From positions 1 to 64,000 of the forward strand of contig NZ_JACHJJ010000012.1 in the NCBI RefSeq assembly GCF_014203605.1: a stretch of DNA of 64,000 bases. Direction: 5' to 3'. The notes beneath the pieces are model-generated. The model saw nothing but the letters and a program-made list of their open reading frames with translations. It ran no database searches and was not told the origin of the DNA. Shown here in pieces: positions 1,333 to 19,757 of the stretch. The stretch comes from Thiemannella venezuelensis. GTDB taxonomy: Bacteria > Actinomycetota > Actinomycetes > Streptosporangiales > Streptosporangiaceae. The first letter of the stretch is position 1. The number at the start of each line of letters is the position of its first letter. The translations under genes and the position numbers were made by a program.

Positions 1333-1356
1333 GGCGTCCTCCCGTCAAGGCCTCTT

Positions 1357-1376
1357 GTAGACGGTATACAGTATGC
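1357..1376. promoter_or_regulatory. Operator in front of sucC: three half-sites, 7-base period
   Basis: Reads GTAGAC-G-GTATAC-A-GTATGC, that is two overlapping 6-1-6 dyads sharing the central self-complementary GTATAC. It lies 25 bases upstream of the sucC start. Sixteen bases (1356-1371) are identical to the site in front of the formate dehydrogenase operon (13983-13998). Inferred target of the GntR regulator at 3441. Confidence 0.75.
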
Positions 1377-1422
1377 ATAAGAACACGTCCATACCTCGAC
1401 AGGAATGCCGGATCGGGTTATT

Positions 1423-1435
1423 CCATACAGTATGG
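1423..1435. promoter_or_regulatory. Operator at the MFS transporter start: CCATAC-A-GTATGG
   Basis: A perfect 13-base dyad (six-base arms around one centre base), the cleanest copy of the shared motif in the window. It overlaps the ATG at 1432. If that ATG is used, the message would be leaderless or nearly so and the bound repressor would sit on the transcription start. The spacing to the sucC site suggests both divergent promoters are controlled together. Confidence 0.75.
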
Positions 1436-3159: not shown

Positions 3160-3361
3160 GGCAGACTCCTAAGGGCGATGGATGCGTCCTGGCCGGCGCC
3201 CGGTTCCGGCGGAGAACCGCACAGGCCGTATCACGTCAAAACGGTTGTCCGTATCCATCTCCCCCTGCCGGAACGGCTCAAACGCGGCAATGATCGTCAA
3301 CGCCGCGCACACGGTGGACCATGATGTGACCAGGCTCACCACGGCGGATCCACTGGTCGCT

Positions 3362-3381
3362 GTATACTGTAGGCAGTCGAC
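3362..3381. promoter_or_regulatory. Operator upstream of gntR (autoregulation site)
   Basis: Reads GTATAC-T-GTAGGC-A-GTCGAC: one good dyad and a weaker third element, keeping the seven-base period. It lies about 60 bases upstream of the regulator's start at 3441. The same motif at the regulator's own promoter and at the catabolic promoters is the main argument that this GntR protein is the ligand-responsive factor. Confidence 0.7.
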
Positions 3382-3440
3382 GACAAACACCGGGCCGTCG
3401 GCAGACGGTGGTCGTGTCGTCCCTTTTTGGAGCAGACAAC

Positions 3441-4184
3441 ATGGTGCGGTCGGAACCAGTGAACCCGGGGGCGGCACCCAAGATCCCGCGCCCGGTCACC
3501 CTCCGCGAGAGCGTCTTCGAGGCGATCCTGGAGCTGATCATCAGCGGGGGCCTCGGCCCCGGCCAGCATCTCGCCGAGAACGAGCTCGCCGAGATGCTCG
3601 GGGTCTCCCGCCAGCCCGTCCGCGAAGCCCTGCAGATGCTCAGCGGCGAGGGCTGGGTCGATCTGCGTCCCGGGCACGGCGCGTTCGTCCACGCGCCGAC
3701 GGTGGAGGAGGCCGACCAGCTGCTCGCCGTCCGCACGCTGCTGGAGACCGAGTCGGCGCGGCTGGCCGCGCTGGACCCGACGGCGGGCGGCACGGCGCGG
3801 TTGCGCGAGATCTGCGCCCGGGGCCGGGCCGCGATCGAGGCCGACGACATCGACGCCGCGGTGGCGGCCAACTCGGAGCTCCACGCCCTGATCACCGAAC
3901 TCTCCGGCAACAAGGTGCTGGCCGAGCTGGCCTCCCAGGTCGCCCGCCGCGTCCGGTGGTACCACACGCCCGTGGCGCGCCACCGCGGCCACGCCTCCTG
4001 GGAGGAGCACGCCCTGCTGATCGACGCCATCGAGGCGGGCGACCAGGAGCGGGCCGAGCAGATCATGCGCGACCACACCGAGCACACCCGCCAGTCCTAC
4101 ATGGAGCAGCGCGCCCAGAGCCCGGACGAACCGGCTCCCGCGCCCCAGCGCCGCCGGCGCCCGCGCTCGCTCAGCGCGAGCTGA
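3441..4184 (+). CDS. GntR family regulator, FCD (FadR) subfamily, proposed oxalate/formate regulator
   Basis: 247 residues. Winged helix near residues 20-85 with LAENELAEMLGVSRQPVREA recognition region, then an all-helical FCD ligand domain with the metal-binding histidines in NSELHALI, WEEHALLIDAI and MRDHTEHT. Start chosen at ATG 3441 because GGAG lies eight bases upstream; an earlier ATG at 3408 lacks a site. The C-terminus is a basic tail rich in Pro and Arg. Family members usually repress and release DNA on binding a small carboxylate or acyl-CoA. The same dyad precedes this gene and five neighbouring units, so it likely controls them all; the inducer could be oxalate, oxalyl-CoA or formate. 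Confidence 0.88.
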   Translation: MVRSEPVNPGAAPKIPRPVTLRESVFEAILELIISGGLGPGQHLAENELAEMLGVSRQPVREALQMLSGEGWVDLRPGHGAFVHAPTVEEADQLLAVRTLLETESARLAALDPTAGGTARLREICARGRAAIEADDIDAAVAANSELHALITELSGNKVLAELASQVARRVRWYHTPVARHRGHASWEEHALLIDAIEAGDQERAEQIMRDHTEHTRQSYMEQRAQSPDEPAPAPQRRRRPRSLSAS

Positions 4185-5557: not shown

Positions 5558-6081
5558 CGTGCTCCCTTCCTCGGCGCCCGGCGGCGCTCGGCGGTCCGCC
5601 TCAGCACCTCCGCGTGCGCGACGTAGCGGCCGAGCAGTTCCCGCGCCCGCGGGTTGCGGCCGCGCACGCGCAGCAGCCAGTACGGCATGAGCCGCTCGTG
5701 CAGCCAGACGAAGCCGAGCGCGAACCCGAGGCTCACCATGGCCTGGTAGGCGAGGAAGCCCGGCAGGCCGCCCGCCAGGACGACCTCCCCGGCCAGGACC
5801 AGTCCCAGGGCCGTCTCCTGCACCAGCCGGGCCAGCGGGAAGCCGGCCAGCCAGTACAGGCCGGCCGGGGCGAACAGGCCGGGCCTGATCGTGCCCCGGC
5901 TCATCAGCAGGCCGTACCCCCCGCCGAGGAGACCGAGCGGGGTGGCGAGCAGGAGCGCCGACAGGGCCGCGGTGCCGGCGGGCTGTCCTGCGATGAGGGT
6001 CAGCCCGCCGGCCGCGGCTCCGGCGACGGCTCCGACGGCCAGCCCGGGCAGGGCGAGCTCGAAGCTGTGCCGGTGCTCCAT
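5554..6081 (-). CDS. Hypothetical membrane protein between Nramp-like carrier and TerC
   Basis: 175 residues, start ATG 6081 overlapping the stop of the Nramp-like gene (ATGA). Four to five hydrophobic stretches, Gly/Ala/Leu rich, then a basic C-terminus (LLRVRGRNPRARELLGRYVAHAEVLRRTAERRRAPRKGAR region, quoted only in part: key residues are clustered Arg). No family recognised. Four-base overlaps on both sides imply translational coupling with the two transporters, so it may be a partner or accessory subunit of one of them. Confidence 0.7.
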   Translation of the reverse strand: MEHRHSFELALPGLAVGAVAGAAAGGLTLIAGQPAGTAALSALLLATPLGLLGGGYGLLMSRGTIRPGLFAPAGLYWLAGFPLARLVQETALGLVLAGEVVLAGGLPGFLAYQAMVSLGFALGFVWLHERLMPYWLLRVRGRNPRARELLGRYVAHAEVLRRTAERRRAPRKGAR

Positions 6082-7586
6082 CAGCCCACGACCACGCCGA
6101 AGGCGAACAGGCTGTAGAAGAGCATGCCCAGGTAGAAGAAGGCGCCGAACCCGATGATCAGGTTGCTCCACCATCTGGGCCTGATGGGTTTGGGCAACAT
6201 CCGGTTGTTCACCAGCAGCAGCGTCACGCAGTAGGCCCCCATCGCGAAGGTCGACAGGAAGGCCAGCGTGTCCAGGATGCCGCTGGGCCCGTCGGCGGGG
6301 CCGAACAGCAGGATGAGGATGCCGAATGCGATCACGCCCCAGAGGAAGCCCGCGTACAGGTGCGAGAGCTTGAACCTCTTGGCCCCCGGGACGAAGTTGT
6401 GGGTCATGTCGGCCTGGCCCCGGGAGAAGGAGTCGAACAGGCCGAGCGTGGCGTTCAGTCCGATGAGCGCGATGAACCCCAGGAAGATCGTGCCGAGCAC
6501 CGGGCTGCCCGCCGAGGAGACGGAGTCGGCCATGGCGGTGAGCGCCACCTCGCGCTCGTCACCCTGGATGGCCGTGCGGACCGCGGGGTCCTGCCGGACC
6601 GCGGCCTGCGCGATCACCGTGAAGGAGATCGTCACCAGCATCGTGATGCCCCAGAACAGCAGCAGCGCGTCGAAGGTGACCCAGCGCCGCCACCCCCGCC
6701 ACTTGGCCATCTCCGCGGGGTCGTCGGTGTCGAACATGAATCCCCGGGAGGGCATGGCCTCCTCCTCGCCGGCGTGCCGCAGCCCGCGGATGCTCGGGAT
6801 GTGCGCGCCCATGCCGGCCCCGGAGTCGCGCAGGTGCAGGGTGTACCACATCTGCTGCATGCCCGAGGGGCCGGCGAAGGCGCACGCGCCGACGATGACC
6901 GGGAACCACGCCGCCGACATGGCCTCGGACGGGAAGTACCCGAACGCGAACATGCCGGTGACCGTGTCGGCCACGTCGCCCCAGGTGCCGACCATCGCCG
7001 CGACGACGGCCGTGCCCAGCACGAGCACGCCGATCAGGATCGAGAGCACGCTCTCCAGCAGGTTGTAGATCACCTTCGCGAGGCTGAAGACGACGCCGAC
7101 GAGGATCAGGCCGGCGACGGCCGTGACCGTCCACGGGATCCCGGTGATCTCCTCGAAGGCCGCGGCCCCCGCCGACAGGTGGCCCGGCCAGATGTAGACC
7201 AGGATCGCCGCGACGAAGAAGAACCACATGAGCGGCTTGAAGACCCGGGCGGCGCCGGAGAAGATGCTCTCTCCGGTGGCCATGGCGTAGCGCGCCATCT
7301 CCAGCATGACCACGGCCTGGAGGGTGACGCCGATGAGGAACAGCCACCGGATCTCCGGTCCGAAGAGCAGGACCAGCCGGGGCCACATGTAGGACTCGCC
7401 CATGCCCACGCCGAGCGCGACGAGGAACACGGTGGGTCCGAGGATGTGCACCGACGGCGGCGCGTCGGGCAGCGTGCGGATGGGCATCGGCTCCAGCCCG
7501 CCCGCGCGCCATACGCGTTCTTCCTGGCCCGGCTGGGCGGGGACCTGCCCGGTCCCCGCCGTCGCCGGTGTTCTTGACGTGTCCAC
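6081..7586 (-). CDS. Nramp-related transporter with divergent metal-site motifs
   Basis: 501 residues, about 11 hydrophobic segments; overall layout resembles Nramp (LeuT-fold) carriers. The two metal-coordinating motifs are altered: in segment 1 the DPGN motif is replaced by GVGMGESYMWP (residues 59-69), and in segment 6 the A/M-P-H motif by GPSGMQQMW (239-247). This argues against a normal Mn/Fe importer. GTG 7586 is chosen because AGGAGG precedes it by seven bases; a GTG at 7649 also opens the frame. Located between the acyl-CoA ligase gene and terC, under the oxc operator. A second carrier for oxalate-related substrate or for Mg is conceivable. Confidence 0.75.
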   Translation of the reverse strand: MDTSRTPATAGTGQVPAQPGQEERVWRAGGLEPMPIRTLPDAPPSVHILGPTVFLVALGVGMGESYMWPRLVLLFGPEIRWLFLIGVTLQAVVMLEMARYAMATGESIFSGAARVFKPLMWFFFVAAILVYIWPGHLSAGAAAFEEITGIPWTVTAVAGLILVGVVFSLAKVIYNLLESVLSILIGVLVLGTAVVAAMVGTWGDVADTVTGMFAFGYFPSEAMSAAWFPVIVGACAFAGPSGMQQMWYTLHLRDSGAGMGAHIPSIRGLRHAGEEEAMPSRGFMFDTDDPAEMAKWRGWRRWVTFDALLLFWGITMLVTISFTVIAQAAVRQDPAVRTAIQGDEREVALTAMADSVSSAGSPVLGTIFLGFIALIGLNATLGLFDSFSRGQADMTHNFVPGAKRFKLSHLYAGFLWGVIAFGILILLFGPADGPSGILDTLAFLSTFAMGAYCVTLLLVNNRMLPKPIRPRWWSNLIIGFGAFFYLGMLFYSLFAFGVVVG

Positions 7587-7659
7587 GTGCGGACCTCCTG
7601 GGGGGTTGGTTGATCCTGCTGGAGTTCCTCTGTTCGCCCCCTCGCTCACGCCGCGCGGC

Positions 7660-9795
7660 TCAGCCGCGCAGCAGCCCGGCCGCCCTGGCCCAGCGGTACT
7701 TGGCGCCGAGCACGGCCACCGGCTTCTCCGTGGTGTAGGGGTAGGCGGCGACGCCGTGGTCGAAGAGGTGCGCGCAGGCGTCCTCGACCTCGGTGTCGCC
7801 GGCCAGCGAGGCGACGACGGGTTTGTCGTTGCCCTTGGCCCTCTCTTCGGCGACCACCCGCGCGACCAGTTCGGCGAAGACCATCGGCGGTGTCACGATG
7901 GTGTGCCAGTAGCCGAGCACCAGCGCGTGCACCCGCGGGTCGGACAGGCCGAGCCTGATGGTGTTCTCGTAGGTGCTCGGCGGCTCGCCGCCGGTGATGT
8001 CGATGGGGTTGCCGGCCGCGCCGAACGGCGGGATGTACGCGCGGAAGGCCTCGTCGAGATCCGGCGGGATCTCCATGAGCGAGAGGCCGTTGTCGACGCA
8101 CGCGTCGGAGAGCAGCACGCCCGAGCCGCCCGCCCCGGTGATGATGACGACGTTCTCCCCCGCGGGGGTGGGCATGAGCGGCAGGGCGCGGGCGTACTCG
8201 AGCATGTCGTTGAGGCCCGGCGCGCGGACCACCCCGGCCTGGCGCAGGATGTCGTCGTAGACCTTGTCGTCGCCGGCCAGCGCCCCGGTGTGGGAGCCGG
8301 CCGCCCGCGCGCCCATCGCGGTGCGCCCGGCCTTGAGCACGATCACCGGCTTGCTCCGCACCACCCGCCGGGCCGCCTCGACGAAGCCGCGCCCGTCCTT
8401 GAGGTCCTCCAGGTGCATGGCGACGCAGCGGGTGTCGTCGTCCTGCTCGAAGAAGGTGAGCAGGTCGTCCTCGTCGATGTCGGCCTTGTTGCCGACGCCC
8501 ACGATCGCCGAGACCCCGGTCCTGGTCGCCCGGCTGAAGCCCAGGATGGCCATGCCGATGCCGCCGCTCTGCGAGGTCAGCGCCACCCCGCCCTTGACGT
8601 CGTACGGCGTGCAGAACGTGGCGCAGAGGTTCTCCGGCGTGTAGTAGTAGCCGTAGATGTTGGGGCCGAGCACGCGCACGCCGTGCCGGCGCGCGATCTC
8701 CACGATCTCCCGCTGCCCTTCCGCGTTCCCGGTCTCGGCGAACCCGGACGGGATCATGATGGCGCCCGCCACGCCCTTGCGGCCCGCCTGCTCCAGGGCC
8801 GCGGGCACGAGCTTGGCGGGGATCGCGAAGACCGCCACGTCCACCTCGCCCGGCACCTCGGCGACGCTCGGATAGGCGGGCAGGCCGAGGATCTCCGGGG
8901 CCTTGGGGTTGACCGGATAGATGTGGCCGCGGTAGCCGCCGTCGATCAGGTTACGCATGACCGAGTTGCCGATCTTGCCGGTCTCGCCCGACGCGCCGAT
9001 CACCGCGACGGAGCGCGGCCGGAAGATGCGGTTCATGGAGGCGAGGATCTCCTCGCGCGACGGCCGTACCCGCTCGGGCTCCGGCCGGTCGGCGAGCAGC
9101 ATCCGCACGTCGGCCGCGACCGCCCCGGCCGCGGTGGCGAAGACGGGGTTGAGGTCCACCTCGGCCAGCTCGGGGAAGTCGCCGGCCAGCGCGCCCACTC
9201 GTTCGATCATGTCCGCGAGCGCCCTCCTGTCCGCCGGCTCGGCGCCCCGGGCACCGCGCAGCACTTCGGCCGCCCTGATGTCGTCCAGCATCCCCATGGC
9301 ATCTTCACCCGTGAGCGGGGCGAGCCGGAAGGTCACATCTCTGATCACCTCGACCAGGACGCCGCCGAGCCCGAAGGCGACGATCTTGCCGAAGGTCGGG
9401 TCGGTGACCGCACCGATGATCACTTCGTGGCCGCCGCCGACCATGGCCTGCACCTGGACGCCGTCGATCGCCGCCTCGGGGTTGTGGGCGCGCGCCGCCG
9501 CCATGACCTGGTCGTAGCCCGCGCGCACCGCCGCCGGGTCGCGCAGGCCGACGAGCACGCCGCCCGCCTCCGTCTTGTGCAGGATGTCGGGTGAGACGAT
9601 CTTCAGCACCACGGGGAGGCCGAGCTCCTCCGCGACGGCGGCGGCCTCCTCGGCCGAGGCCGCCAGCCCCTCTCCCGGGGTCGTGATGCCGTAGGCGTCG
9701 CAGATCCGGCGCCCCTCGGGCGCGGTCAGGGCCGTCCGGCCCTCAGCGCGGGCCTTGTCCAGCACCTCCCGCACCGCGGCACGGTCGTACGCCAT
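7660..9795 (-). CDS. ADP-forming acyl-CoA ligase (ATP-grasp / CoA-binding fusion)
   Basis: 711 residues. Domain order: ATP-grasp (about 10-235, with VVLKIVSPDILHKTEAGGV), CoA-binding Rossmann domain (about 260-350, SVAVIGASGETGKIGNSV), then succinyl-CoA-ligase-like domains including the phosphohistidine motif SHTGALAGDD (His502). This is the acetate-CoA ligase (ADP-forming) type with the ATP-grasp part at the N-terminus. It would make an acyl-CoA from a carboxylate and ATP. Start overlaps the frc stop (ATGA). Context suggests oxalate, formate or a related short acid as substrate, perhaps to prime the CoA-transferase cycle; the exact substrate cannot be read from sequence. Confidence 0.85.
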   Translation of the reverse strand: MAYDRAAVREVLDKARAEGRTALTAPEGRRICDAYGITTPGEGLAASAEEAAAVAEELGLPVVLKIVSPDILHKTEAGGVLVGLRDPAAVRAGYDQVMAAARAHNPEAAIDGVQVQAMVGGGHEVIIGAVTDPTFGKIVAFGLGGVLVEVIRDVTFRLAPLTGEDAMGMLDDIRAAEVLRGARGAEPADRRALADMIERVGALAGDFPELAEVDLNPVFATAAGAVAADVRMLLADRPEPERVRPSREEILASMNRIFRPRSVAVIGASGETGKIGNSVMRNLIDGGYRGHIYPVNPKAPEILGLPAYPSVAEVPGEVDVAVFAIPAKLVPAALEQAGRKGVAGAIMIPSGFAETGNAEGQREIVEIARRHGVRVLGPNIYGYYYTPENLCATFCTPYDVKGGVALTSQSGGIGMAILGFSRATRTGVSAIVGVGNKADIDEDDLLTFFEQDDDTRCVAMHLEDLKDGRGFVEAARRVVRSKPVIVLKAGRTAMGARAAGSHTGALAGDDKVYDDILRQAGVVRAPGLNDMLEYARALPLMPTPAGENVVIITGAGGSGVLLSDACVDNGLSLMEIPPDLDEAFRAYIPPFGAAGNPIDITGGEPPSTYENTIRLGLSDPRVHALVLGYWHTIVTPPMVFAELVARVVAEERAKGNDKPVVASLAGDTEVEDACAHLFDHGVAAYPYTTEKPVAVLGAKYRWARAAGLLRG

Positions 9796-11030
9796 CAGAT
9801 CACCCCGTCCGTCTTCAGCTCGGCGAGCTCCCGCGCGGAGAGGCCGAGGCCGGTGTAGATCTCGGTGTTGTGCTCGCCCAGCAGGGGCGGGGCGGTGACC
9901 TCGACCGGGGAGTCGGACAGCTTCAGCGGGCTGCCGACCGTCACGAACGAGCCGCGCTCGGGGTGCGCGACCTCGACGACCGCGCCCTCCCTGCGCAGGG
10001 TCTCGTCGCCGATCAGTTCTTCGGTCGAGAGGATCGGGCCGCACGGGACGCCGGCGGCGTTGAGCCGGTCGAGGACCTCCCACTTGCCGTGGCGGCCGCT
10101 CCACTCCTCGATGAGCTGGAACATCTTGTCCAGCTTCGGCAGCCGGGCCGCCGGCGTGGCCCACTCGGGGTCGGCGGCCAGCTCGGGGCGGCCGATGATC
10201 TCCGCGAGCGGCGCCCAGCCGACCGGCTGGACGATGACGTAGATGTAGTCGTTGGGGCCGCCCGGCGCGCATCGCACGGCCCAGCCGGGCTGCCCGCCGC
10301 CGGAGGCGTTCCCCGAGCGGGGGACCTCCGTGCCGAAGGTCTTGTTGGGGTACTCGGCCAGCGGGCCGTGCGCCAGCCGCTGCTGGTCGCGGAGCTTCAC
10401 CCGGCACAGGTTGAGCACGGCGTGCTGCATGGCGACCTGGACCCGCTGGCCCCGGCCGGTCCGCTCGCGCTGGTAGAGCGCCGCCAGGATGCCCGCGACG
10501 GCGTGCACGCCGGTGCCGGAGTCGCCGATCTGCGCCCCGGTGGCCAGCGGCGGCCCGTCCTCGAAGCCGGTGGTGCTCATCGAGCCGCCCATCGCCTGGG
10601 CGATCACCTCGTAGGCCTTGAAGTCCGCGTAGCGGCCCGGACCGAAGCCCTTGATCGAGGCGTAGACGAGCCGGGGGTTGAGCTCCCGGAGCCGCTCCCA
10701 GGTGAAGCCCATCCGGTCGACGGCGCCGGGACCGAAGTTCTCCACCATGACGTCGGAGCCGCGCACCAGGTCGGTGAAGATCTCCTTGCCGCGCTCGCTC
10801 TTCATGTTGAGCGTGATGCTGCGCTTGTTGCAGTTCAGCATCGTGAAGTAGAGGCTGTCGACGCCGGGGACGTCGCGCAGCTGCCCGCGCGTGATGTCGC
10901 CCGAGGGGGCCTCCAGCTTGACCACGTCGGCGCCCAGCCACGCCAGGAGCTGGGTGCAGGACGGGCCGGACTGCACGTGGGTCATGTCGAGGACGCGGAC
11001 GCCCTCCAGCGCCCTGCCGGATCCGGTCAT
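9795..11030 (-). CDS. frc: Formyl-CoA:oxalate CoA-transferase
   Basis: 411 residues, class III CoA-transferase (CaiB/BaiF). Matches the Oxalobacter enzyme at diagnostic places: [49 protein letters not shown], the catalytic aspartate in QIGDSGTG (Asp170; Asp169 in Oxalobacter), and the glycine loop [11 protein letters not shown] that is typical of true formyl-CoA transferases. It moves CoA from formyl-CoA to oxalate giving oxalyl-CoA and formate. Ten bases after the ThDP enzyme gene and overlapping the ligase gene, so firmly in one operon. This is the strongest single indicator that the region handles oxalate. Confidence 0.93.
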
Positions 11031-11040
11031 CGCTCGCCCC

Positions 11041-12732
11041 TCACTTGTACATGGTCTGGTTCATGGTTCCGGGGGCGTAGACCTCCGGATCGACCCATAC
11101 GTTGATCAGCGCGGGCTTGCCCGACTCGCGGGCGCGCTCCAGGGCGGGGCGGATGCCGGCGGGGTCCCTGACCTCCTCGCCGTGGCCGCCCAGCATCCGG
11201 GCGAACTCGTCGTAGCGGACGTCGCCGAGGGTGTTGCCGACCCGGGCGCGCGACTCGCCGTACTTGGCCGCCTGGCCGTACCGGATCTGGTTCATCGAGG
11301 AGTTGTTGCCGATGACCCCGATGAACGGCAGGCCGAAGCGGACCATGGTCTCGAAGTCCCAGCCGGTGAGGCTGAAGGCGCCGTCGCCGAAGAGGCAGAG
11401 CACCTCCTTGTCCGGGCGGGCGTGCTTGGCGGCCATCGCGAAGGCCACACCGACGCCGAGGGTGCCCAGCGGCCCGGGGTCCATCCAGTGGCCGGGCGAC
11501 TTGGGCTGCACGACCTGGCCGGAGAAGGTGACGATGTCGCCGCCGTCGCCGATGTAGACGGTGTCCTCGGTGAGGAACTCGTTGATCTCGTGGACGAGCC
11601 GGTAGGGGTCGATCGGCCGGGAGTCCGACAGCTGCCGGGGCAGCCGCTTGTCGAAGGCCTGCTTCTCGACCGCGCGCAGCTCCTCCAGCCACTCCTTGCG
11701 GCGGGCCGCGCCGTTGTCGGTGCGGCCGGAGGCGGCCTGCGCGGCGGCGGAGAGCACGAGCCCGGCGTCGCCGACGATGCCGAGGTCGATGTCGCGGTTC
11801 TTCCCGACGGTGCGGTAGTCGAGGTCGATCTGGACCACGGTGGCGGCGGGCGACAGGCGCCTGCCGTAGCCCATCCGGAAGTCGAACGGGGTGCCGACGA
11901 TGATGATCAGGTCGGCGTTGCCGAACGCGTGGCGCCGCGAGAGCTGGAAGTGGTGGGGGTCGCCGGGCGGGAGCGTGCCGCGGCCCGAGCCGTTCATGTA
12001 GGCCGGGACGTTCAGCGCGCGGACGAAGTCGATCGCGTCGTCGGTGGCGCGGCAGGTCCAGACCTGGCTGCCCAGCAGGACGCAGGGCTTCTCGGCGTGG
12101 GCGAGCAGGTCGGCCAGGCGCTCGATCGCCTCCGGGTCGCCGGCCTGGCGGGTGGAGGCGCGGTAGCGGCCGGCCTCGGGGACGCGGGCGGCCGACAGCG
12201 GGACCCTGGCGTCGAGCACGTCGCGCGGGATCTCCAGGAACGACGGGCCGGGCGCGCCGTGGTAGCACTCGCGGAAGGCCATCGACACGATGTCGGCCAC
12301 CCGTTCGGTCGAGGGCACCGTGGCGGCGAACTTGGTGATCGGGGTCATCATGTCGACGTGCGGCAGGTCCTGCAGCGAGCCCATCTTGTGCTGGCTGAGG
12401 GCGCCCTGGCCGCCGATGAGCAGCATGGGGCTCTCCGCCCGGAAGGCGTTGGCCACGCCGGTGACCGCGTCGGTGGTCCCGGGGCCCGCCGTCACGACCG
12501 CGCACCCCGGCTTCCCGGTGATCCGCGCGTAGCCGTCGGCGGCATGCGCGGCCACCTGCTCGTGGCGGACGTCGACCACATCGATGCCCTCGTCCACGCA
12601 ACCGTCGTAGATGTCGATGATGTGGCCGCCGCAGAGCGTGAAGATCACATCGATCCCCTCCGCCTTGAGCGCCTTGGCCACCAGGTGTCCGCCGGAGATC
12701 GTTTCCGGCGCCGTGTCCGTCGGCTGGGTCAT
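11041..12732 (-). CDS. Thiamine-diphosphate enzyme, probable oxalyl-CoA decarboxylase (atypical)
   Basis: 563 residues with the three-domain ThDP decarboxylase/acetolactate synthase layout: catalytic Glu58 in [16 protein letters not shown], central domain, and [19 protein letters not shown] with the metal-binding GNN stretch. Start ATG 12732 ([10 protein letters not shown]) with AGAGGA eight bases upstream. Residues usual in oxalyl-CoA decarboxylase are changed: the GDYEE-MDQ region (Tyr120-Glu121 in Oxalobacter) reads [12 protein letters not shown], and the C-terminal Ser-Gly-Arg loop is absent. Sequence alone fits an acetolactate-synthase-like or 2-hydroxyacyl-CoA-lyase-like clade; the adjoining frc and shared operator favour decarboxylation of oxalyl-CoA. 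Confidence 0.75.
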
Positions 12733-12757
12733 CCGAGCGGTCCTCTCGTTGTGTTCT

Positions 12758-12777
12758 GCATACTGCATACCGTATGA
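12758..12777. promoter_or_regulatory. Operator upstream of the oxc-frc operon
   Basis: Plus strand reads GCATAC-T-GCATAC-C-GTATGA: a dyad with a repeated left half-site, keeping the seven-base period. It starts 26 bases upstream of the ThDP-enzyme start codon at 12732. Confidence 0.72.
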
Positions 12778-12936
12778 GGGTCATGGTCACCCCTCCGCCT
12801 GGTGATGTCCAGACCCTTTGTCGCCGGGTGCGTCCCCGCGGGGCCGCCCGGCGACCGCGCCTCGGCGGGCGCACCGGCGGACGGAGCCCGCCGCCGGCCG
12901 CTCCGGCCGCCTGGACGCTTCTTGACCGGCAATTTT

Positions 12937-12956
12937 CCATACTGTATACCGAATGC
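12937..12956. promoter_or_regulatory. Operator upstream of panE
   Basis: Reads CCATAC-T-GTATAC-C-GAATGC, a strong dyad plus a third weaker half-site. It ends 26 bases before the panE start. With the site at 12758 it brackets a 159-base GC-rich spacer shared by the divergent oxc and panE promoters. Confidence 0.72.
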
Positions 12957-12982
12957 AGTGTCGACGCGGGACGGAGTCCGCC

Positions 12983-13972
12983 ATGAAAGTCGCTGTTCTC
13001 GGCGCCGGCGCCATCGGCGCCTATGTCGGCGCCGCCCTGCACCGGGCCGGGGCCGAGGTGCACCTCATCGCGCGCGGCGAGCACCTGGCGGCGATGCGCA
13101 GGTCCGGCGTGCGGGTGCTGAGCCCGAGGGGAGACTTCACCGCCCGCCCCCACGCCACCGACGACCCGGCCCAGGTGGGCCCGGTGGACCACGTCTTCCT
13201 GGGACTGAAGGCCACCTCCTACGCGGCCGCCGGCCCCCTGGTCGAGCCCCTGCTCCACGAGGCCACCGGCATCGTCGCCGCCCAGAACGGCATCCCGTGG
13301 TGGTACTTCCACCGGCTCCCCGGCCCCTACCTGGGCCGCTCCATCCAGAGCGTCGACCCCCGGGGGGCGGTCACCGCCGCCCTCCCGCCGGAGCGCGCCA
13401 TCGGGTGCGTCGTCTACGCCGCCACCGAGATCGAGGCCCCCGGCGTGATCCGCCACCTGGAGGGCACCCGCTTCTCCGTGGGCGAGCCGGACGGCTCCCT
13501 CTCCCCCCGCTGCCTGGCCTTCAGCGAGGCCATGGTCGCCGGCGGCCTGAAGTGCCCCGTGGAGGCCGACCTGAGACGCGACATCTGGATCAAGCTCATG
13601 GGCAACATCGCGTTCAACCCGATCAGTGCCCTCACCCGGGCCACGATGGCGGGCATCTGCCGCCACCGCGGGACCCGCGAACTGGTCGTCGCGATGATGC
13701 GCGAGACCGTCGAGGTGGCCCGCCGGGTCGGCTGCGACCCCGGCGTCTCCATCGAGCGCAGGCTCTCCGGCGCCGAGCGCGCCGGAGAGCACAAGACCTC
13801 GACCCTCCAGGACCTGGAGCGGGGCAGGCCCCTGGAGCTGGACGCGATCCTCGCCGCCGTCGTGGAGCTGGCGGAGCTGACCGGCGCCGAGGTCCCCACG
13901 CTGCGCGCGGTCCACGCGGTCTCCGACCTGCTGGCCGAGCAGGCGCGGCGGGGCCTTGTTCCGGCGGGCTGA
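12983..13972 (+). CDS. PanE/ApbA family reductase, candidate oxalyl-CoA reductase
   Basis: 329 residues. Rossmann motif GAGAIGAYVG at residues 7-16; the C-terminal domain carries the family lysine in WIKLMGNIAFNPISAL and a glutamate in LELDAIL. GGAG lies six bases before ATG 12983. Family members reduce 2-oxo groups with NAD(P)H, classically ketopantoate. In Methylobacterium extorquens a PanE homologue (PanE2) is the oxalyl-CoA reductase that makes glyoxylate. Here the gene has the shared operator and faces oxc, so an assimilatory oxalyl-CoA reductase is the best reading; pantothenate synthesis is less likely in this setting. Substrate is not determined by sequence. Confidence 0.8.
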   Translation: MKVAVLGAGAIGAYVGAALHRAGAEVHLIARGEHLAAMRRSGVRVLSPRGDFTARPHATDDPAQVGPVDHVFLGLKATSYAAAGPLVEPLLHEATGIVAAQNGIPWWYFHRLPGPYLGRSIQSVDPRGAVTAALPPERAIGCVVYAATEIEAPGVIRHLEGTRFSVGEPDGSLSPRCLAFSEAMVAGGLKCPVEADLRRDIWIKLMGNIAFNPISALTRATMAGICRHRGTRELVVAMMRETVEVARRVGCDPGVSIERRLSGAERAGEHKTSTLQDLERGRPLELDAILAAVVELAELTGAEVPTLRAVHAVSDLLAEQARRGLVPAG

Positions 13973-13976
13973 AGCG

Positions 13977-14003
13977 ACATACTGTAGACGGTATACAGGA
14001 TTC
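13977..14003. promoter_or_regulatory. Operator upstream of the formate dehydrogenase operon
   Basis: Reads ACATAC-T-GTAGAC-G-GTATAC and then a weak fourth element A-GGATTC. Sixteen bases are identical to the sucC site. It begins five bases after the panE stop, so the formate dehydrogenase genes have their own regulated promoter in addition to any read-through. Confidence 0.72.
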
Positions 14004-14064: not shown

Positions 14065-15990
14065 ATGAAGAGAAGGCGCGCCGAGCGCTACGACCGGCTC
14101 ACCCACCCCCTCGTCCGGGAGGACGGCGTGCTCCGCCGCGCCGGCTGGGAGGAGGCGCTGGACCGGGCCGCGGAGGGGTTCCGCAGGAACGCCGCCCGGC
14201 ACGGGCCCGACGCCTTCGCCATGTTGTCGTGCGCCCGTTCCACCAACGAGATGAACTACGTGGCCCAGAAGTTCGCCAGGGTCGTCGTGGGCACCAACAA
14301 CGTCGACTCCTGCAACCGCACCTGCCACGCGCCGAGCGTGGCCGGCCTGTCGGCGGTCTTCGGCAGCGGCGGCGGCACCTCCTCCTACCAGGAGGTCGAG
14401 GACACCGACGTGATCGTGATGTGGGGGTCGGCGGCCCGCGACGCCCACCCGATCTTCTTCCAGCACGTGCTGAAGGGGATCAGGAAAGGCGCCAGGATGT
14501 TCGCGGTCGACCCCCGGCGCACGGGCACGGCCCGGTGGGCCGACCGCTGGCTGGGGCTGAACGTCGGCACCGACATCCCGCTCGCCCACGCGGTCGCCCG
14601 GGAGATCGTCCACGCCGGGCTGCACAACACCGCGTTCGTCGAGCGCGCCACCGAGGGCTTCGCGGAGTTCGCCGCCTCGGTCGAGCCGTGGACCCTGCAG
14701 GCGGCCGAACAGGTCACCGGGGTGCCCGCCGGCGCGATCCGGGAGCTCGCGCACGCCTACGCCCGGGCCGACCGCGCCCAGCTGTGCTGGACGCTCGGGA
14801 TCACCGAGCACCACAACGCCACCGACAACGTGCGCGCGCTCATCAACCTGGCCCTGCTCACCGGCCACGTCGGGCGCTACGGCTCGGGCCTGTCCCCGCT
14901 GCGCGGGCAGAACAACGTGCAGGGGGGCGGCGACATGGGCGCCATCCCCAACCGGCTCCCCGGCTTCCAGGACATCCTCGAACCGGCCGTCCGGGCCCGG
15001 TTCGAGCAGGCGTGGCAGGCCCCCCTCCAGCCACGCTACGGCCTCAACCTCACCGAGATGCTGGAGGCGATGGGCGAGGGGAAGGTCACCACCTGCTACA
15101 TCGTCGGGGAGAACCCCGTGCAGTCCGAGGCCGACTCCCTCAACTGCGTCAAACGGCTGGGCATGCTCGACCACCTGGTCGTGCAGGACATCTTCCTCAC
15201 CAAGACCGCCCTGATGGCCGACGTGGTCCTGCCCGCCGGCGCGGCCTGGTGCGAGAGCGAGGGCACCTTCACCAACAGCGAGCGCAGGGTGCAGCGGGTG
15301 CGCAAGGCGATCGAGCCGCCGGGCGAGGCCCGTGACGACATCGTGATCCTCTGCGAGCTCGCCCGCCGTCTCGGCCACGACTGGCACTACGACGGCGCCG
15401 AGGAGGTCTGGGACGAACTGCGGCGGTTGTCGCCCGCGCACGCCGGAATGACCTACCGGCGCCTGGCCGACCTGCAGGGCATCCAGTGGCCCTGCCCGTC
15501 CGAGGACTCCCTGGAGCCCCCCTTCCTGCACGGGCGGCTCTGGGAGACCGACCCCGCCAGGCGCGGCAGGGCCGCGCCCTTCGCGATCCTGCGGCACTCC
15601 CCCCCGGTCGACCTGCTCGACGACGACTACCCGCTCCGGCTGACCACCGGCCGGCGTCTCGACTCCTACAACACCGGCGTGCAGTCCTCCGGCTTCGCCT
15701 CCCCGCTGCGCCGGGGCGAGACCGTCGAGCTCTCCCCCGAGGACGCCGCGCGGCTCGGCGTGGTCCCGGGCGAGGAGGTCAGGATCACCTCCCGGCGGGG
15801 CTCGGTGGTCGCCCCGGTCTTCGTCGACCCCGGCCTGCGCCCCGGGCTGGTCTTCATGACCATGCACTTCCCCGACGAGGTCGACACCAACTCCCTGACC
15901 ATCGAGGCGACCTGCCCGATCGCGGGCACCGCCGAGTTCAAGGCGGCCGCCGTCCGCGTCGACAGGCTCGTGCCCGCGAAGGCCGGGTGA
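14065..15990 (+). CDS. fdhA: Formate dehydrogenase catalytic chain lacking its N-terminal Fe-S lobe
   Basis: 641 residues of the Mo-bis-MGD formate dehydrogenase alpha subunit. The molybdenum ligand is a cysteine, Cys87 followed by His88 in NNVDSCNRTCHAP (selenocysteine in some homologues). Later motifs are YIVGENPVQSEADS, VVLPAGAAWCESEGTFTNSERR and the C-terminal cofactor domain TTGRRLDSYNTGVQ. The usual first 50-plus residues that bind a 4Fe-4S cluster (CxxCxxxC...C-x-K) are absent; they are found at the end of the protein at 18000. Active site and cluster lobe must therefore assemble from two chains. Product: CO2 plus electrons passed to the NuoEF-like subunit. Confidence 0.88.
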   Translation: MKRRRAERYDRLTHPLVREDGVLRRAGWEEALDRAAEGFRRNAARHGPDAFAMLSCARSTNEMNYVAQKFARVVVGTNNVDSCNRTCHAPSVAGLSAVFGSGGGTSSYQEVEDTDVIVMWGSAARDAHPIFFQHVLKGIRKGARMFAVDPRRTGTARWADRWLGLNVGTDIPLAHAVAREIVHAGLHNTAFVERATEGFAEFAASVEPWTLQAAEQVTGVPAGAIRELAHAYARADRAQLCWTLGITEHHNATDNVRALINLALLTGHVGRYGSGLSPLRGQNNVQGGGDMGAIPNRLPGFQDILEPAVRARFEQAWQAPLQPRYGLNLTEMLEAMGEGKVTTCYIVGENPVQSEADSLNCVKRLGMLDHLVVQDIFLTKTALMADVVLPAGAAWCESEGTFTNSERRVQRVRKAIEPPGEARDDIVILCELARRLGHDWHYDGAEEVWDELRRLSPAHAGMTYRRLADLQGIQWPCPSEDSLEPPFLHGRLWETDPARRGRAAPFAILRHSPPVDLLDDDYPLRLTTGRRLDSYNTGVQSSGFASPLRRGETVELSPEDAARLGVVPGEEVRITSRRGSVVAPVFVDPGLRPGLVFMTMHFPDEVDTNSLTIEATCPIAGTAEFKAAAVRVDRLVPAKAG

Positions 15991-15994
15991 GGGC

Positions 15995-17884
15995 ATGGAC
16001 CTCCGGTTCCGCGACGCCGAACCGTCGGCGGAGGAGCGGGCGGCGGTCGACGCCGTCCTCGGCCCTCCCCCGAGCGGCTGGGAGGGCGGCGCCCGCACCG
16101 AGGAGGACCTGCGGTTCGCCTCGGGCGGCCACGAGGCCCGCGACCGCCGCGATCTCCTGCTCCCCGCGCTGCACGCGGTCAACGACCGGATCGGGTGGAT
16201 CAGCCAGGGGGCGCTCGACTACGTCTGCCGCCGTCTGACCGTGCCGCCCGCCGAGGCGTACGGCGTGGCGACGTTCTACTCGTTGTTCTCCCTGAAGCCG
16301 CGCCCCACCCGGGTCCTGCACGTCTGCACCGACCTGGCCTGCCGGGCGCGCGGGGCGGAGGCCGTACGGCGCGGCGTGGCGGAGGCCCTGGGACCGCCCG
16401 GCGCGTCCTGGCGGCCCAGCCCCTGCCTCGGCCTGTGCGAGCGGGCCCCGGCAGCGCTCGCCCTGGAGGCGGGCGAGGTGCCGAAGGCCGCCGTGTACGG
16501 CCCGATGGCACCGGACCGGGAGGCGGCGGGGCGTCCCGGTCCGGGCGCGGCGGACGACGCCCCGGCCGGTCCTCCCGGCGTGGACCTCACCGAGCGGCCG
16601 GAGCCCCCGGCCGAGCACGCCGTGCCCCAGGCGGGCCGGGACGGGCTGGTCCTGCTGCGCCGGGTGGGGAGGGTCGATCCGGCGAGCCTCGACGACTACC
16701 GCGCCGAGGGCGGCTACGCGGCGCTGCGCCGGGCCTTCGCGCTCGGCCCGGCCGGGGTCGTCCGCGAGGTGCTCGACTCGGGCCTGGTCGGCCGGGGCGG
16801 GGCGGCGTTCCCCACCGGGCGCAAGTGGGAGGCGGCCGCCGGCCGGCCCGACCACCCCCACTACCTGGTCTGCAACGCCGACGAGAGCGAGCCCGGCACG
16901 TTCAAGGACCGCGTGATCATGGAGGGCGACCCGTACGCCCTGGTCGAGGCGATGACCATCGCGGGTTACGCGACCGGCTGCCACCGGGGCTACCTCTACA
17001 TCCGCGGCGAGTACCCCCGCGCCGTCCGCCGCATGTCCCACGCCATCGCCGCGGCCCGTTCGCGCGGCCTGCTCGGCGACGACGTCATGGGCCAGGGATA
17101 CGCCTTCGACATCGAGCTCCGGCGCGGCGCGGGCGCCTACATCTGCGGCGAGGAGACGGCGATCTTCAACTCGATCGAGGGCTACCGCGGCGAGCCGCGC
17201 AGCAAGCCGCCCTTCCCCGTGGAGAAGGGGCTGTTCGGCAAGCCGACGGTGGTCAACAACGTCGAGACCCTGGTCAACGTGCCGCCCATCCTGCTCGCCG
17301 GCGCCGGCGCCTACGCCGCGACCGGCACCGCGGGTTCGACCGGCCCCAAGCTCTTCTGCGTCTCGGGCGCCGTCGCCCGGCCGGGCGTCTACGAGGTGCC
17401 GTTCGGCGCCACCCTGCGCGACCTGCTCGGCCTGGCCGGAGGCACGACCGGGACGCTCCGGGCGGTGCTGCTGGGCGGGGCCGCGGGCGCCTTCGTCCGC
17501 CCCGGCGAGCTGGACGTGCCGCTCACCTTCGAGGGCACCCGCGCGATCGGGGCGACGCTGGGCTCGGGCGTGGTGCTCGCGCTCGACGAGAGCGTCGACC
17601 TGGCCGGGATCCTGCTCCGCATCGCCGGGTTCTTCCGCGACGAGTCGTGCGGGCAGTGCGTGCCCTGCCGGGTGGGCACCGTACGCCAGGAGGAGGCGCT
17701 GCACCGGCTCAGCCTCAGGCCCGCCCCGGGGGACGCCGCAGGCGACCTCGCGCTGCTGAGGGAGGTCGGCCAGGCCATGCGCGACGCCTCGATCTGCGGG
17801 CTCGGCCAGACCGCGTGGAACGCGGTCGAGTCCGCCATCGACCGCCTGGGCGTCTTCTCCCCCCGGGAAGGGTCGCCGGCATGA
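15995..17884 (+). CDS. Formate dehydrogenase diaphorase subunit, NuoE-NuoF fusion
   Basis: 629 residues. Residues about 45-165 are a thioredoxin-like 2Fe-2S domain (NuoE/FdsG type) with Cys111, Cys116, Cys144 and Cys148. From about 220 a NuoF/FdsB module follows: FMN loop GRGGAAFPTGRKW, NAD site GAGAYICGEETAIF, and the 4Fe-4S motif SCGQCVPCR plus ICGLGQT. A proline-rich linker joins the parts. It takes electrons from the catalytic chain and reduces NAD+. Starts four bases after fdhA. Not complex I: no other nuo genes are present and the partners are formate dehydrogenase parts. Confidence 0.9.
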   Translation: MDLRFRDAEPSAEERAAVDAVLGPPPSGWEGGARTEEDLRFASGGHEARDRRDLLLPALHAVNDRIGWISQGALDYVCRRLTVPPAEAYGVATFYSLFSLKPRPTRVLHVCTDLACRARGAEAVRRGVAEALGPPGASWRPSPCLGLCERAPAALALEAGEVPKAAVYGPMAPDREAAGRPGPGAADDAPAGPPGVDLTERPEPPAEHAVPQAGRDGLVLLRRVGRVDPASLDDYRAEGGYAALRRAFALGPAGVVREVLDSGLVGRGGAAFPTGRKWEAAAGRPDHPHYLVCNADESEPGTFKDRVIMEGDPYALVEAMTIAGYATGCHRGYLYIRGEYPRAVRRMSHAIAAARSRGLLGDDVMGQGYAFDIELRRGAGAYICGEETAIFNSIEGYRGEPRSKPPFPVEKGLFGKPTVVNNVETLVNVPPILLAGAGAYAATGTAGSTGPKLFCVSGAVARPGVYEVPFGATLRDLLGLAGGTTGTLRAVLLGGAAGAFVRPGELDVPLTFEGTRAIGATLGSGVVLALDESVDLAGILLRIAGFFRDESCGQCVPCRVGTVRQEEALHRLSLRPAPGDAAGDLALLREVGQAMRDASICGLGQTAWNAVESAIDRLGVFSPREGSPA

Positions 17885-18003
17885 CCGCCCCCGGAGGGAA
17901 CGCCGGCACGGCGGCCGCCGGGCGGATCCCCGGCGCGGCGGGCCGCTTCTCCGTCCCTCCCCGGCGCGGAGGCCGGGGGCCACACGCTGGAGGCAGCCGA
18001 TGA
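17881..18003 (+). CDS. Gap-bridging mini-ORF (40 aa)
   Basis: ATG 17881 overlaps the stop of the NuoEF gene (ATGA) and its own TGA overlaps the next start at 18000 (ATGA again). The peptide is Gly/Pro/Ala/Arg rich with no recognisable motif. It may serve only to carry ribosomes across the gap; high GC makes such frames fairly common by chance. Confidence 0.3.
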   Translation: MTAPGGNAGTAAAGRIPGAAGRFSVPPRRGGRGPHAGGSR

Positions 18004-18872
18004 GCGCCGTTCCCCTGCAGCCGCCCCGGCGGCTGATCGAGATGACCGTCGACGGACAGGAGGTCCGCGTACCCGAGGGGGCGACCGTCCTGGACGCCTG
18101 CGCCGCGGCGGGCAAGGACATCCCCACCCTCTGCCACGGCGACACCCTCACCCCCAAGAACGCCTGCCGGGTCTGCGTGGTGGAGGTCGAGGGCTCCCGC
18201 ACGCTCGCCCCCGCCTGCTCCCGCAGGGCCGAGCCGGGCATGGTGGTGGGCACCGCGACCGAGCGCGCCCGGCACAGCCGCAAGGTCGTCCTGGAGCTTC
18301 TGGCCTCCTCCACCGACCTGTCCACGACACCGCGCGCCGCCGAGTGGATCGGCGAGTACGGCGCGCGGCCGGACCGCTTCGGCCCGGAGGCGGCCACGGT
18401 CGCGCAGCCGCCCAAGGTCGACAACGACCTCTACGTGCGCGACTACGCCAAGTGCATCCTGTGCTACAAGTGCGTCGACGCCTGCGGGGAGCAGTGGCAG
18501 AACACCTTCGCCATCGCGGTCGCCGGGCGGGGCTTCGACGCGGTGATCTCCACCGAGCACGACGCCCCGCTGACCGACTCGGCGTGCGTCTACTGCGGCA
18601 ACTGCGTGGAGGTCTGCCCCACCGGGGCGCTGTCGTTCAAGAGTGAGTTCGACATGCGCGCGGCGGGCGAGTGGGACGAGCCGCGGCAGACGCAGACGAC
18701 GACGATCTGCAGCTACTGCGGGGTCGGCTGCAACCTGACCCTGCACGTGCAGGACAACCGGATCGTCAAGGTGAGCTCGCCGCACGACAACCCGGTCACC
18801 CGCGGCAACCTCTGCATCAAGGGCCGTTTCGGCTACCAGCACGTCCAGAACGTGGGGCCGTCCGATGGGTAG
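18000..18872 (+). CDS. Formate dehydrogenase Fe-S chain carrying the displaced N-terminal lobe of FdhA
   Basis: 290 residues. Order: plant-type 2Fe-2S domain (Cys45, 56, 59, 73); two 4Fe-4S ferredoxin clusters (Cys152/155/158/162 and Cys196/199/202/206); then residues 233-285 are the molybdopterin-oxidoreductase Fe4S4 domain with Cys237, Cys240, Cys244, Cys272 and Lys274, which in normal FdhA is fused to the catalytic chain. The His/Cys-ligated cluster segment usual after the 2Fe-2S domain lacks its cysteines here (LSTTPRAAEWIGEYG region). GGAGG lies six bases before ATG 18000. It bridges the Mo site and the diaphorase subunit. Confidence 0.88.
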   Translation: MSAVPLQPPRRLIEMTVDGQEVRVPEGATVLDACAAAGKDIPTLCHGDTLTPKNACRVCVVEVEGSRTLAPACSRRAEPGMVVGTATERARHSRKVVLELLASSTDLSTTPRAAEWIGEYGARPDRFGPEAATVAQPPKVDNDLYVRDYAKCILCYKCVDACGEQWQNTFAIAVAGRGFDAVISTEHDAPLTDSACVYCGNCVEVCPTGALSFKSEFDMRAAGEWDEPRQTQTTTICSYCGVGCNLTLHVQDNRIVKVSSPHDNPVTRGNLCIKGRFGYQHVQNVGPSDG

Positions 18873-18889: not shown

Positions 18890-18937
18890 GTGCGACGGGC
18901 AGGCCGTGCGATGGGTAGGCCGTGCGATGGGTAGGGT
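18890..18937. repeat. Three tandem 16-base units across the fdhD start
   Basis: Units at 18890, 18906 and 18922 read GTGCGAYGGGYAGGCC with two base changes in the first and an altered end in the third. Units two and three each contain ATGGGTAGG, but 16 is not a multiple of three, so only the last ATG (18927) opens the fdhD frame; a GTG at 18906 also does. Confidence 0.7.
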
Positions 18938-19757
18938 CACGGTCAGGCGCCGGGTCCTGCGGTTGCGGGACTCCACGGCCACCCGCAAGGTCGACGCGCT
19001 GGCCGCCGAGGAGCCGCTGGAGATCCGGCTCGGCGGCCGGCCGCTCACGGTCACGATGCGCACCCCCGGCGACGACTTCGACCTGGCCGCCGGGTTCCTC
19101 GTCGGCGAGGGGGTGATCTCCTCCGCGGAGGAGATCACCGCGATCCGCTACTGCGCGGGCGCGACCGCGGACGGCCGCAACACCTACAACGTGCTCGACG
19201 TCACCCTGGCCGCCGGGACCGCGCCGCCGCCCGCGTCGCTGGAGCGCAACTTCTACACGACCTCCTCCTGCGGGGTCTGCGGGAAGGCCTCCCTCGACGC
19301 GGTCCGCACGGTCGCCACGTGGCGGGTGGACGGCGACCCGGTCCGGGTGCCGGCCGAGGTGATCGCGGCCCTGCCCGACCGGCTCCGCGCGGCCCAGCGG
19401 GTGTTCGACCGGACCGGCGGCCTGCACGCCGCGGGCCTGTTCGCCCCGGACGGGACCCCGCTGTGCGTGCGGGAGGACGTGGGCCGCCACAACGCGGTGG
19501 ACAAGCTGGTGGGCTGGGCGGTGCGCGACGGCCGGCTGCCGCTGGCCTCCGGCGTGCTGATGGTCTCCGGGCGCGCCTCGTTCGAGCTCGTCCAGAAGGC
19601 GGTGATGGCCGGGATCCCGGTGCTCGCCGCCGTCTCGGCTCCCTCCTCGCTGGCCGTGGAGCTCGCCGCGGAGGCGGGCCTGACCCTCGCCGGGTTCGTC
19701 CGGGGCGCCTCGATGAACGTCTACAGCAGGGAGGACCGGATCGGCGCGGCCATCTAG
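18927..19757 (+). CDS. fdhD: FdhD sulfurtransferase for formate dehydrogenase maturation
   Basis: 276 residues. The paired cysteines Cys115 and Cys118 in SSCGVCGK are the sulfur-relay residues; other family marks are [30 protein letters not shown] and [12 protein letters not shown]. It passes sulfur to the Mo-bis-MGD cofactor before insertion into formate dehydrogenase and is essential for activity in studied systems. Start ATG 18927 (MGRVTVRRR); GTG 18906 would add seven residues. Last gene of the formate dehydrogenase operon, followed by a hairpin. Confidence 0.93.

Follow-up and report, generated by a model that had tools for sequence, protein, structure and literature searches.

The window, which is the whole stretch of 64,000 nucleotides from Thiemannella venezuelensis analysed here, carries a gene for a ThDP enzyme directly ahead of a gene for formyl-CoA:oxalate CoA-transferase (frc). 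The question raised by this locus is which reaction the enzyme, labelled OXCL in this report, catalyses. By comparing sequences we concluded that OXCL is very probably an oxalyl-CoA decarboxylase of independent origin, arising from the ThDP branch to which the actinobacterial 2-hydroxyacyl-CoA lyase (AcHACL) also belongs. OXCL probably works like oxalyl-CoA decarboxylase (OXC) yet stands outside the known OXC family.

On the minus strand, the OXCL reading frame begins with the ATG at 12732 and continues uninterrupted as far as its stop at 11041. An alternative start further out (12768) falls within an operator-like site (12757-12776), so the start at 12732 was preferred. The frc start at 11030 lies 10 bases downstream, exactly as the first-pass annotation had stated, and the product is a clear match to TIGR03253 (Table 1). 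The Frc protein was conserved around Q17, D169, and the G259/G260 loop, and Gln stood at the W48 position, like most bacterial Frc in PMC10192776 (papers are cited here by PMC number, from excerpts of their text). The third gene encodes a fused NDP-forming acyl-CoA ligase of 711 aa, which scored under the cut-offs of the named ligase families. We compared the locus with 80 named loci, the best 80 of at least 591 OXCL relatives, and the order OXCL-frc-ligase on one strand was present in all of them (80/80).

Table 1. Features of the window around OXCL; the named loci represent the top 80 among at least 591 relatives.
Feature	Position	Strand	Evidence
SucC-like ADP-forming CoA ligase beta subunit	169..1332	-	NF001913 457.8 bits, cut-off 370
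Operator-like palindrome between sucC and MFS gene	1356..1377	.	0 expected in shuffles
MFS transporter related to oxalate/formate antiporter (OFA) family	1405..2766	+	TIGR00890 E 1.3e-20, TIGR04259 E 5.5e-17
Operator-like site 5' of GntR gene	3361..3375		
GntR/FCD regulator	3408..4184	+	Pfam GntR and FCD; operator-like site 3361-3375
TerC/Alx-family membrane protein, frequent neighbour	4544-5557	-	
206-aa protein without family match, frequent neighbour	5554-6174	-	
Nramp-family transporter, frequent neighbour	6081..7649	-	NF037982 459.1 bits, cut-off 50
NDP-forming acyl-CoA ligase (fused, 711 aa), candidate CoA ligase for oxalate or formate	7660..9795	-	third cluster gene in 80/80 named loci
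frc, formyl-CoA:oxalate CoA-transferase	9795..11030	-	TIGR03253 660.7 bits, cut-off 504.2
OXCL, ThDP enzyme, putative non-canonical oxalyl-CoA decarboxylase, 563 aa	11041..12732	-	followed by frc and ligase in 80/80 named loci
Operator-like palindrome 5' of OXCL-frc-ligase	12757..12776		
Operator-like palindrome 5' of PanE-type gene	12936..12957		
PanE/ApbA-type reductase, candidate oxalyl-CoA reductase	12983..13972	+	NF005089 448.4 bits, cut-off 223
Operator-like site 5' of formate dehydrogenase genes	13978..13997		
Formate dehydrogenase alpha, main part	14065..15990	+	TIGR01591 650.8 bits, under cut-off 666.25
NuoE/NuoF-like formate dehydrogenase subunit	15995..17884	+	
Ferredoxin-type subunit with Fe4S4 N-terminal part of formate dehydrogenase alpha	18000..18872	+	TIGR01591 profile 1-50 at residues 235-284
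FdhD, formate dehydrogenase accessory protein	18906..19757	+	NF001943 399.4 bits, cut-off 269

OXCL scored under every curated cut-off among the best 25 of its 50 matched families. It was rejected as a canonical OXC with 239.2 bits against TIGR03254 (cut-off 739.4), residues and trees also being against it, as an AcHACL with 366.1 bits against NF058623 (cut-off 600), and as a biosynthetic acetolactate synthase with 323.5 bits against TIGR00118 (cut-off 538.35). The top NCBIfam match was the acetolactate synthase PRK05858 (NF004516), where OXCL reached 508.5 bits and was again rejected at the cut-off of 587. This score is what speaks for OXCL being a PRK05858-type acetolactate synthase whose position next to frc is accidental. 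However, the value is under the curated cut-off and biosynthetic acetolactate synthases are found on another branch of the tree. The linkage to frc in 80/80 named loci (best 80 of at least 591) led us to reject chance neighbourhood and already contradicts this explanation, and the co-occurrence with frc in 55/55 genomes of the window's family also speaks against it; we regard it as practically out of the question.

Residues were compared in an alignment of 66 proteins, 26 of them OXCL (the window protein, 20 from the 80 named loci, 2 from other genome loci, and 3 from proteobacterial loci). Relative to Oxalobacter OXC, Y120 was replaced by L120, E121 by Q121, Y483 by I483, and S553 by G555 (as aligned), and R555 had no counterpart; each of these changes was seen in 26/26 OXCL rows. 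The 17 canonical OXC rows kept Y120, Y483, and S553 throughout (17/17) and E121 in 15 (Gln in the other 2), while position 555 was variable. The substrate residues Y120, E121, Y483, and S553 are reported as conserved in OXC, with R555 in about 50% (PMC10192776). The earlier observation that OXCL has neither the Tyr-Glu pair nor the C-terminal Ser-Gly-Arg loop therefore extends to every OXCL row of the alignment. The catalytic E56 of OXC was retained as E58 in 26/26 OXCL, which is weak evidence for OXC membership because this residue was common to all other rows of the alignment except E. coli GCL.

Compared with canonical OXC (TIGR03254; O. formigenes 2c31, E. coli 2q27, and M. extorquens 7ayg), OXCL has the same superfamily fold, frc partner, some of the cluster neighbours, and Glu56. 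It differs in its low identity to 15 canonical OXCs (23-31%), in forming a separate clade, and in having none of Y120/E121/Y483/S553/R555. Moreover, the OXC segments KGAAY, GARLNW, and MDSN were not conserved, and the C-terminal tail was different. In the OXC of Mycobacterium mageritense, Ala versions of Y126/E127/Y485 retained about 10% activity (PMC7190790). Since the substrate residues of OXC are replaced in OXCL and such Ala versions are about 10% active, a different binding mode must be assumed if OXCL is a decarboxylase.

The best-scoring solved structures for OXCL were those of AcHACL (7pt1-4 and 9qz4-7), which makes more exact the earlier suggestion of a likeness to lyase and acetolactate synthase types. 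OXCL shares with AcHACL the broader branch, the GGH motif, the Leu-Gln pair (L120-Q121 in OXCL, L127-Q128 in AcHACL), and, in a low-confidence model, a helix at the Glu493 region. These likenesses, together with the formyl-CoA chemistry common to both, would suit a 2-hydroxyacyl-CoA lyase, or a formyl-CoA:aldehyde ligase if the reaction ran backwards, with Frc and formate dehydrogenase only disposing of formyl-CoA. Glu493 is the acid/base residue of AcHACL (PMC8760513). Its position in the alignment was set via the aligned E493A/S/Q structure chains and the numbering offset. It was occupied by Ile483 in 26/26 OXCL and by Glu in 3/3 HICL rows, which argues against a lyase, although the E493A variant of AcHACL keeps about a tenth of kcat (PMC8760513). 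OXCL also differs from AcHACL by Cys in place of Gln41, by its linkage to frc and oxalate-type genes, and by the missing C-terminal lid; this large lid domain is a feature of AcHACL (PMC8760513), whereas OXCL has a short tail ending in QTMYK. The OFA-like transporter and the PanE-type reductase that accompany OXCL in the window, and the canonical OXC found where the cluster lacks OXCL (see below), are further points against it. The HICL gene sits with hcl/mpd genes (PMC7176365), and the OXCL neighbours identified here belong to other families. We consider a lyase or ligase function very unlikely; the joining of formyl-CoA and an aldehyde, which the first-pass annotation had offered as its second alternative, is disfavoured by the exchange with OXC and by the Ile at the Glu493 position.

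For a decarboxylase, Ile483 is a fitting residue, since decarboxylation needs no proton acceptor, unlike the cleavage of 2-hydroxyacyl-CoA (PMC8760513). The AlphaFold model of OXCL was mediocre (pLDDT 70.6), with a helix at 479-491 and unreliable loops and tail. Foldseek E-values ranked the AcHACL chains top, but TM-scores were slightly higher for M. extorquens OXC (0.81-0.82) than for AcHACL (0.75-0.78). As the two measures point in opposite directions, the model is undecided between AcHACL and OXC.

Maximum-likelihood trees were built from 66 rows and from 63 rows after dropping three long branches, and the question of a common OXC/OXCL clade was set before tree building. OXCL and canonical OXC formed separate groups, each at 100/100. 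In the 66-row tree, OXC joined HACL/S 8vzj, and OXCL was placed with unnamed relatives, a PRK05858-like protein of the window's own genome, and HICL. Constraining OXC and OXCL together was rejected with p-AU values of 2.3e-27 (66 rows) and 4.2e-43 (63 rows), both trees carrying a long-branch warning. The phylogeny that the first-pass annotation had proposed places OXCL outside canonical OXC, and no grouping within oxc was seen.

The PRK05858-like paralogue (C22:133212-134858) lies on another contig than frc and is about 40% identical to OXCL. It groups with the HICL/OXCL branch, not with acetolactate synthases, and differs from OXCL by a Glu at the 493 position. Because of this placement and the Glu, it may be a misnamed 2-hydroxyacyl-CoA lyase. 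The nearest relatives of OXCL, nine proteins with 45-48% identity, came from other families of the phylum and showed Asp for Asn at position 477. Their genomes contained no frc over the cut-off, and none was present among the nearby ORFs picked, a selection in which the relative itself was unlisted at two loci.

The occurrence of OXCL was then compared with that of frc and canonical OXC. Among 150 genomes of the window's family, OXCL (called at 79% identity or more, the next matches being at about 42%) was present in 55, frc in 59, and canonical OXC in 8. All 55 OXCL genomes contained frc, the other 4 frc genomes contained OXC, and no genome had OXCL and OXC together. The p values for the OXCL-frc association (Fisher, 1e-36), for the perfect complement among frc genomes (2e-6), and for the OXCL/OXC exclusion, which taken alone was weak (0.023), are only indicative, because the genomes share ancestry and the counts are not independent. 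Among 246 genomes of the phylum, frc was found in 8, of which 3 had OXCL and 5 had OXC (one at 730 bits, just below the cut-off), and both enzymes in 0. Canonical OXC was also absent from 50 further OXCL genomes (0/50; drawn from the 80 named loci, best 80 of at least 591), and none over the cut-off was found elsewhere in the window's own genome.

Similar results were obtained from a plasmid collection, which takes in chromids and a few chromosome-sized records. OXCL (65% identity or more) was present in 8 records, all with frc, and OXC in 27, with an overlap of 0; a ninth match at 36% identity was left out of the OXCL count. The 38 records with frc comprised 8 with OXCL, 23 with OXC, and 7 with neither on the same record. 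OXC without frc over the cut-off was seen in 4/8 OXC genomes of the family and 2/7 of the phylum. Since OXC occurs without frc, and both enzymes are missing from 7/38 plasmid-collection records with frc, frc is an imperfect pointer. Taken as a whole, this distribution of sequences suggests that OXCL does the job of OXC.

Direct exchange of the two enzymes was visible in related clusters. The cluster of genome G310 is ordered sucC/OXCL-frc-ligase-MFS. In G331, from the same genus (probably Streptomyces), the order is sucC/frc-ligase-MFS without OXCL, about 140 bases lie in the place of OXCL, and the frc is 79% identical to that of the window. About 22 kb off, the same contig carries a canonical OXC together with formate dehydrogenase genes and a GntR gene sharing 54% identity with its window counterpart; the OXC gene is outside the frc cluster itself. 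Cupriavidus metallidurans has sucC/OXCL-frc-ligase, whereas C. campinensis has sucC/frc-ligase with a canonical OXC-frc just upstream. In a Streptomyces-like genus and in Cupriavidus, versions of this cluster that lack OXCL have a canonical OXC nearby.

A further exchange was seen between Skermanella, which has GntR-OXC-frc-ligase-sucC and whose ligase shares 67% identity with that of the window, and Phyllobacterium, where OXCL-frc-sucCD is accompanied by this ligase, an annotated oxlT, and a neighbouring PanE-type gene. In Streptomyces fungicidicus the order is OXCL-frc-ligase-OFA transporter. Within the bases fetched, this ligase type was absent from the OXC stretches of Paracoccus (which has sucCD and GntR), E. 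coli, Caballeronia SBC1, and M. bullatum. SucC- or SucCD-like CoA ligase genes recurred near OXCL clusters and canonical OXC clusters alike, and the SucC/SucCD-like ligase is a candidate oxalate-CoA or formate-CoA ligase.

These results also bear on the idea that OXCL forms a C-C bond, for example between formyl-CoA or an oxalyl-CoA-derived carbanion and glyoxylate, as an assimilation step in place of a decarboxylation. With four mutations, the OXC of M. extorquens can condense formyl-CoA and formaldehyde (PMC8760513), and the divergent PanE-type reductase is an expected supplier of glyoxylate, both of which agree with such a reaction. However, it would leave the genomes with OXCL and frc without a known decarboxylase, as canonical OXC was found in 0 of 55 in the family, 3 in the phylum, and 50 named (of the best 80 of at least 591), and canonical OXC appears where OXCL is missing. 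We therefore judge C-C bond formation extremely unlikely. The first alternative of the first-pass annotation, an independent origin of the OXC role, is strongly supported by the genomic evidence, namely the AU tests, the pairing with frc in every orthologue-bearing genome or locus checked, the lack of coexistence with OXC in the samples, and the OXC standing where OXCL is missing.

The neighbouring genes of the window fit oxalate use, with an OFA-like transporter, CoA ligases, a PanE-type reductase, formate dehydrogenase, and five operator-like sites. The MFS transporter scored under the cut-offs of TIGR00890, TIGR04259, and its top match, the L-lactate MFS family NF049980. Divergent from OXCL are the PanE-type reductase, three formate dehydrogenase genes, and fdhD. 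The formate dehydrogenase alpha subunit was split: profile positions 49-672 were matched by the main gene (14065-15990), and positions 1-50 (the Fe4S4 domain) formed the end of the gene at 18000-18872, two genes on. The Nramp-type, 206-aa, and TerC-type genes (4544-7649) trail the oxalate genes in many of the best 80 loci of at least 591, and this trio is perhaps concerned with metal handling tied to metal oxalates. A Pfam search with the Nramp-family transporter gave no match at 1e-5.

A palindromic motif CATACTGTATACCGTATG with an overlapping TGTATACNGTATRCA was detected at five places of the window, and shuffled windows gave 0. The listed ORF of the PanE-type reductase begins at 12953, inside one of these sites. 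A similar site (at most 3 mismatches) was found near the OXCL start in 79/80 named loci (best 80 of at least 591), compared with 26/400 random control stretches. At no more than 2 mismatches, the motif was absent from the G310, G331-frc, and S. fungicidicus loci; the OXC locus of G331 contained two such sites, neither adjoining OXC. The GntR/FCD protein is a probable regulator of the OXCL cluster and probably controls the units bearing the operator-like sites, a role that we infer together with its ligand.

The proposed pathway would begin with oxalate uptake via the OFA-like MFS transporter. Frc would transfer CoA from formyl-CoA to oxalate, with the ligases priming the cycle. OXCL would use Glu58 to form the ThDP ylide, which would attack the thioester carbonyl of oxalyl-CoA; CO2 would leave, the carbanion would be protonated, and formyl-CoA would be released. 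Frc would free formate, to be oxidised by the adjacent formate dehydrogenase, and the PanE-type reductase may divert part of the oxalyl-CoA to glyoxylate. As candidates for taking over carboxylate and CoA binding, we propose the near-invariant tail (YAPGT..QTMYK) and the segment NNS(S/A)MNQIRYGQ. The tail residues G555-K563 were invariant in 38/38 actinobacterial rows, and each of the three proteobacterial rows differed once, at 557 or 558. S479 of the segment was Ala in two proteobacterial rows.

The same pathway logic is seen in Cupriavidus necator H16, where frc-oxc-apbA2 combines frc, an oxalyl-CoA decarboxylase, and a PanE-type reductase; the PanE-type gene of the window parallels apbA2/panE2 (PMC7486775). 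Deletion of frc-oxc abolished growth on oxalate, and deletion of the nearby PanE homologue slowed it (PMC7486775). The H16 decarboxylase gene is annotated oxc and may be of either type.

OXCL was present in 87/199 genomes of the G331 genus, with matches 82-86% identical and one at 71%. Among the matches listed (best 80 of at least 591), Streptomyces loci were 83-85% identical to the window protein. Many OXCL records presumably belong to Streptosporangiaceae and Pseudonocardiaceae, judging by our family assignment of the record titles. In the plasmid collection, OXCL was also found in records of Cupriavidus metallidurans, Caballeronia, and Phyllobacterium. The NCBI product name, where the gene is listed, is 'thiamine pyrophosphate-binding protein', and the present finding suggests a better name for this common gene.

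It is likely that OXCL represents a second independently evolved oxalyl-CoA decarboxylase family with a new mode of holding oxalyl-CoA (the QTMYK tail and the NNS(S/A)MNQIRYGQ segment), that it serves filamentous soil actinobacteria as their usual enzyme for oxalate, occurring also in Cupriavidus, Caballeronia, and Phyllobacterium, and that it was exchanged more than once with OXC in clusters that otherwise resemble each other. Oxalate degradation in many soil actinobacteria appears to rely on an enzyme which evolved separately from the textbook OXC and occupies its place in the cluster. Robertson and Meyers 2022 is reportedly a study on oxalate use in Kribbella. In the open literature, no assignment of a function to OXCL was found among the matches listed, and earlier recognition in subscription papers is possible. 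The excerpted text of the C. metallidurans genome paper (PMC2864759) makes no mention of oxalyl or formyl-CoA; as far as their excerpts go, PMC6370202 concerns another pathway and PMC9107242 merely cites an OXC paper.

In bacterial oxalotrophy, oxc is regarded as a key gene, and canonical oxc was used to take its census (PMC10192776). If OXCL does decarboxylate oxalyl-CoA, many soil actinobacteria go uncounted in such censuses (OXCL in 55/150 genomes of the window's family, OXC in 8/150). Evolution would then have solved the same decarboxylation twice, separately, in one fold, giving a natural comparison of ThDP decarboxylase with formyl-CoA lyase/ligase that is relevant to the engineering of one-carbon enzymes.

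Two minor observations were made on related sequences. Bacterial HACL/S relatives were found in only one of 100 phylum genomes, at the place of a canonical OXC. One record bears the title Rhodococcus rhodnii NRRL B-16535 but belongs to a genome of about 12.4 Mb, and in the tree its OXCL paired with that of Actinocrispum wychmicini; the label of this record may be wrong.
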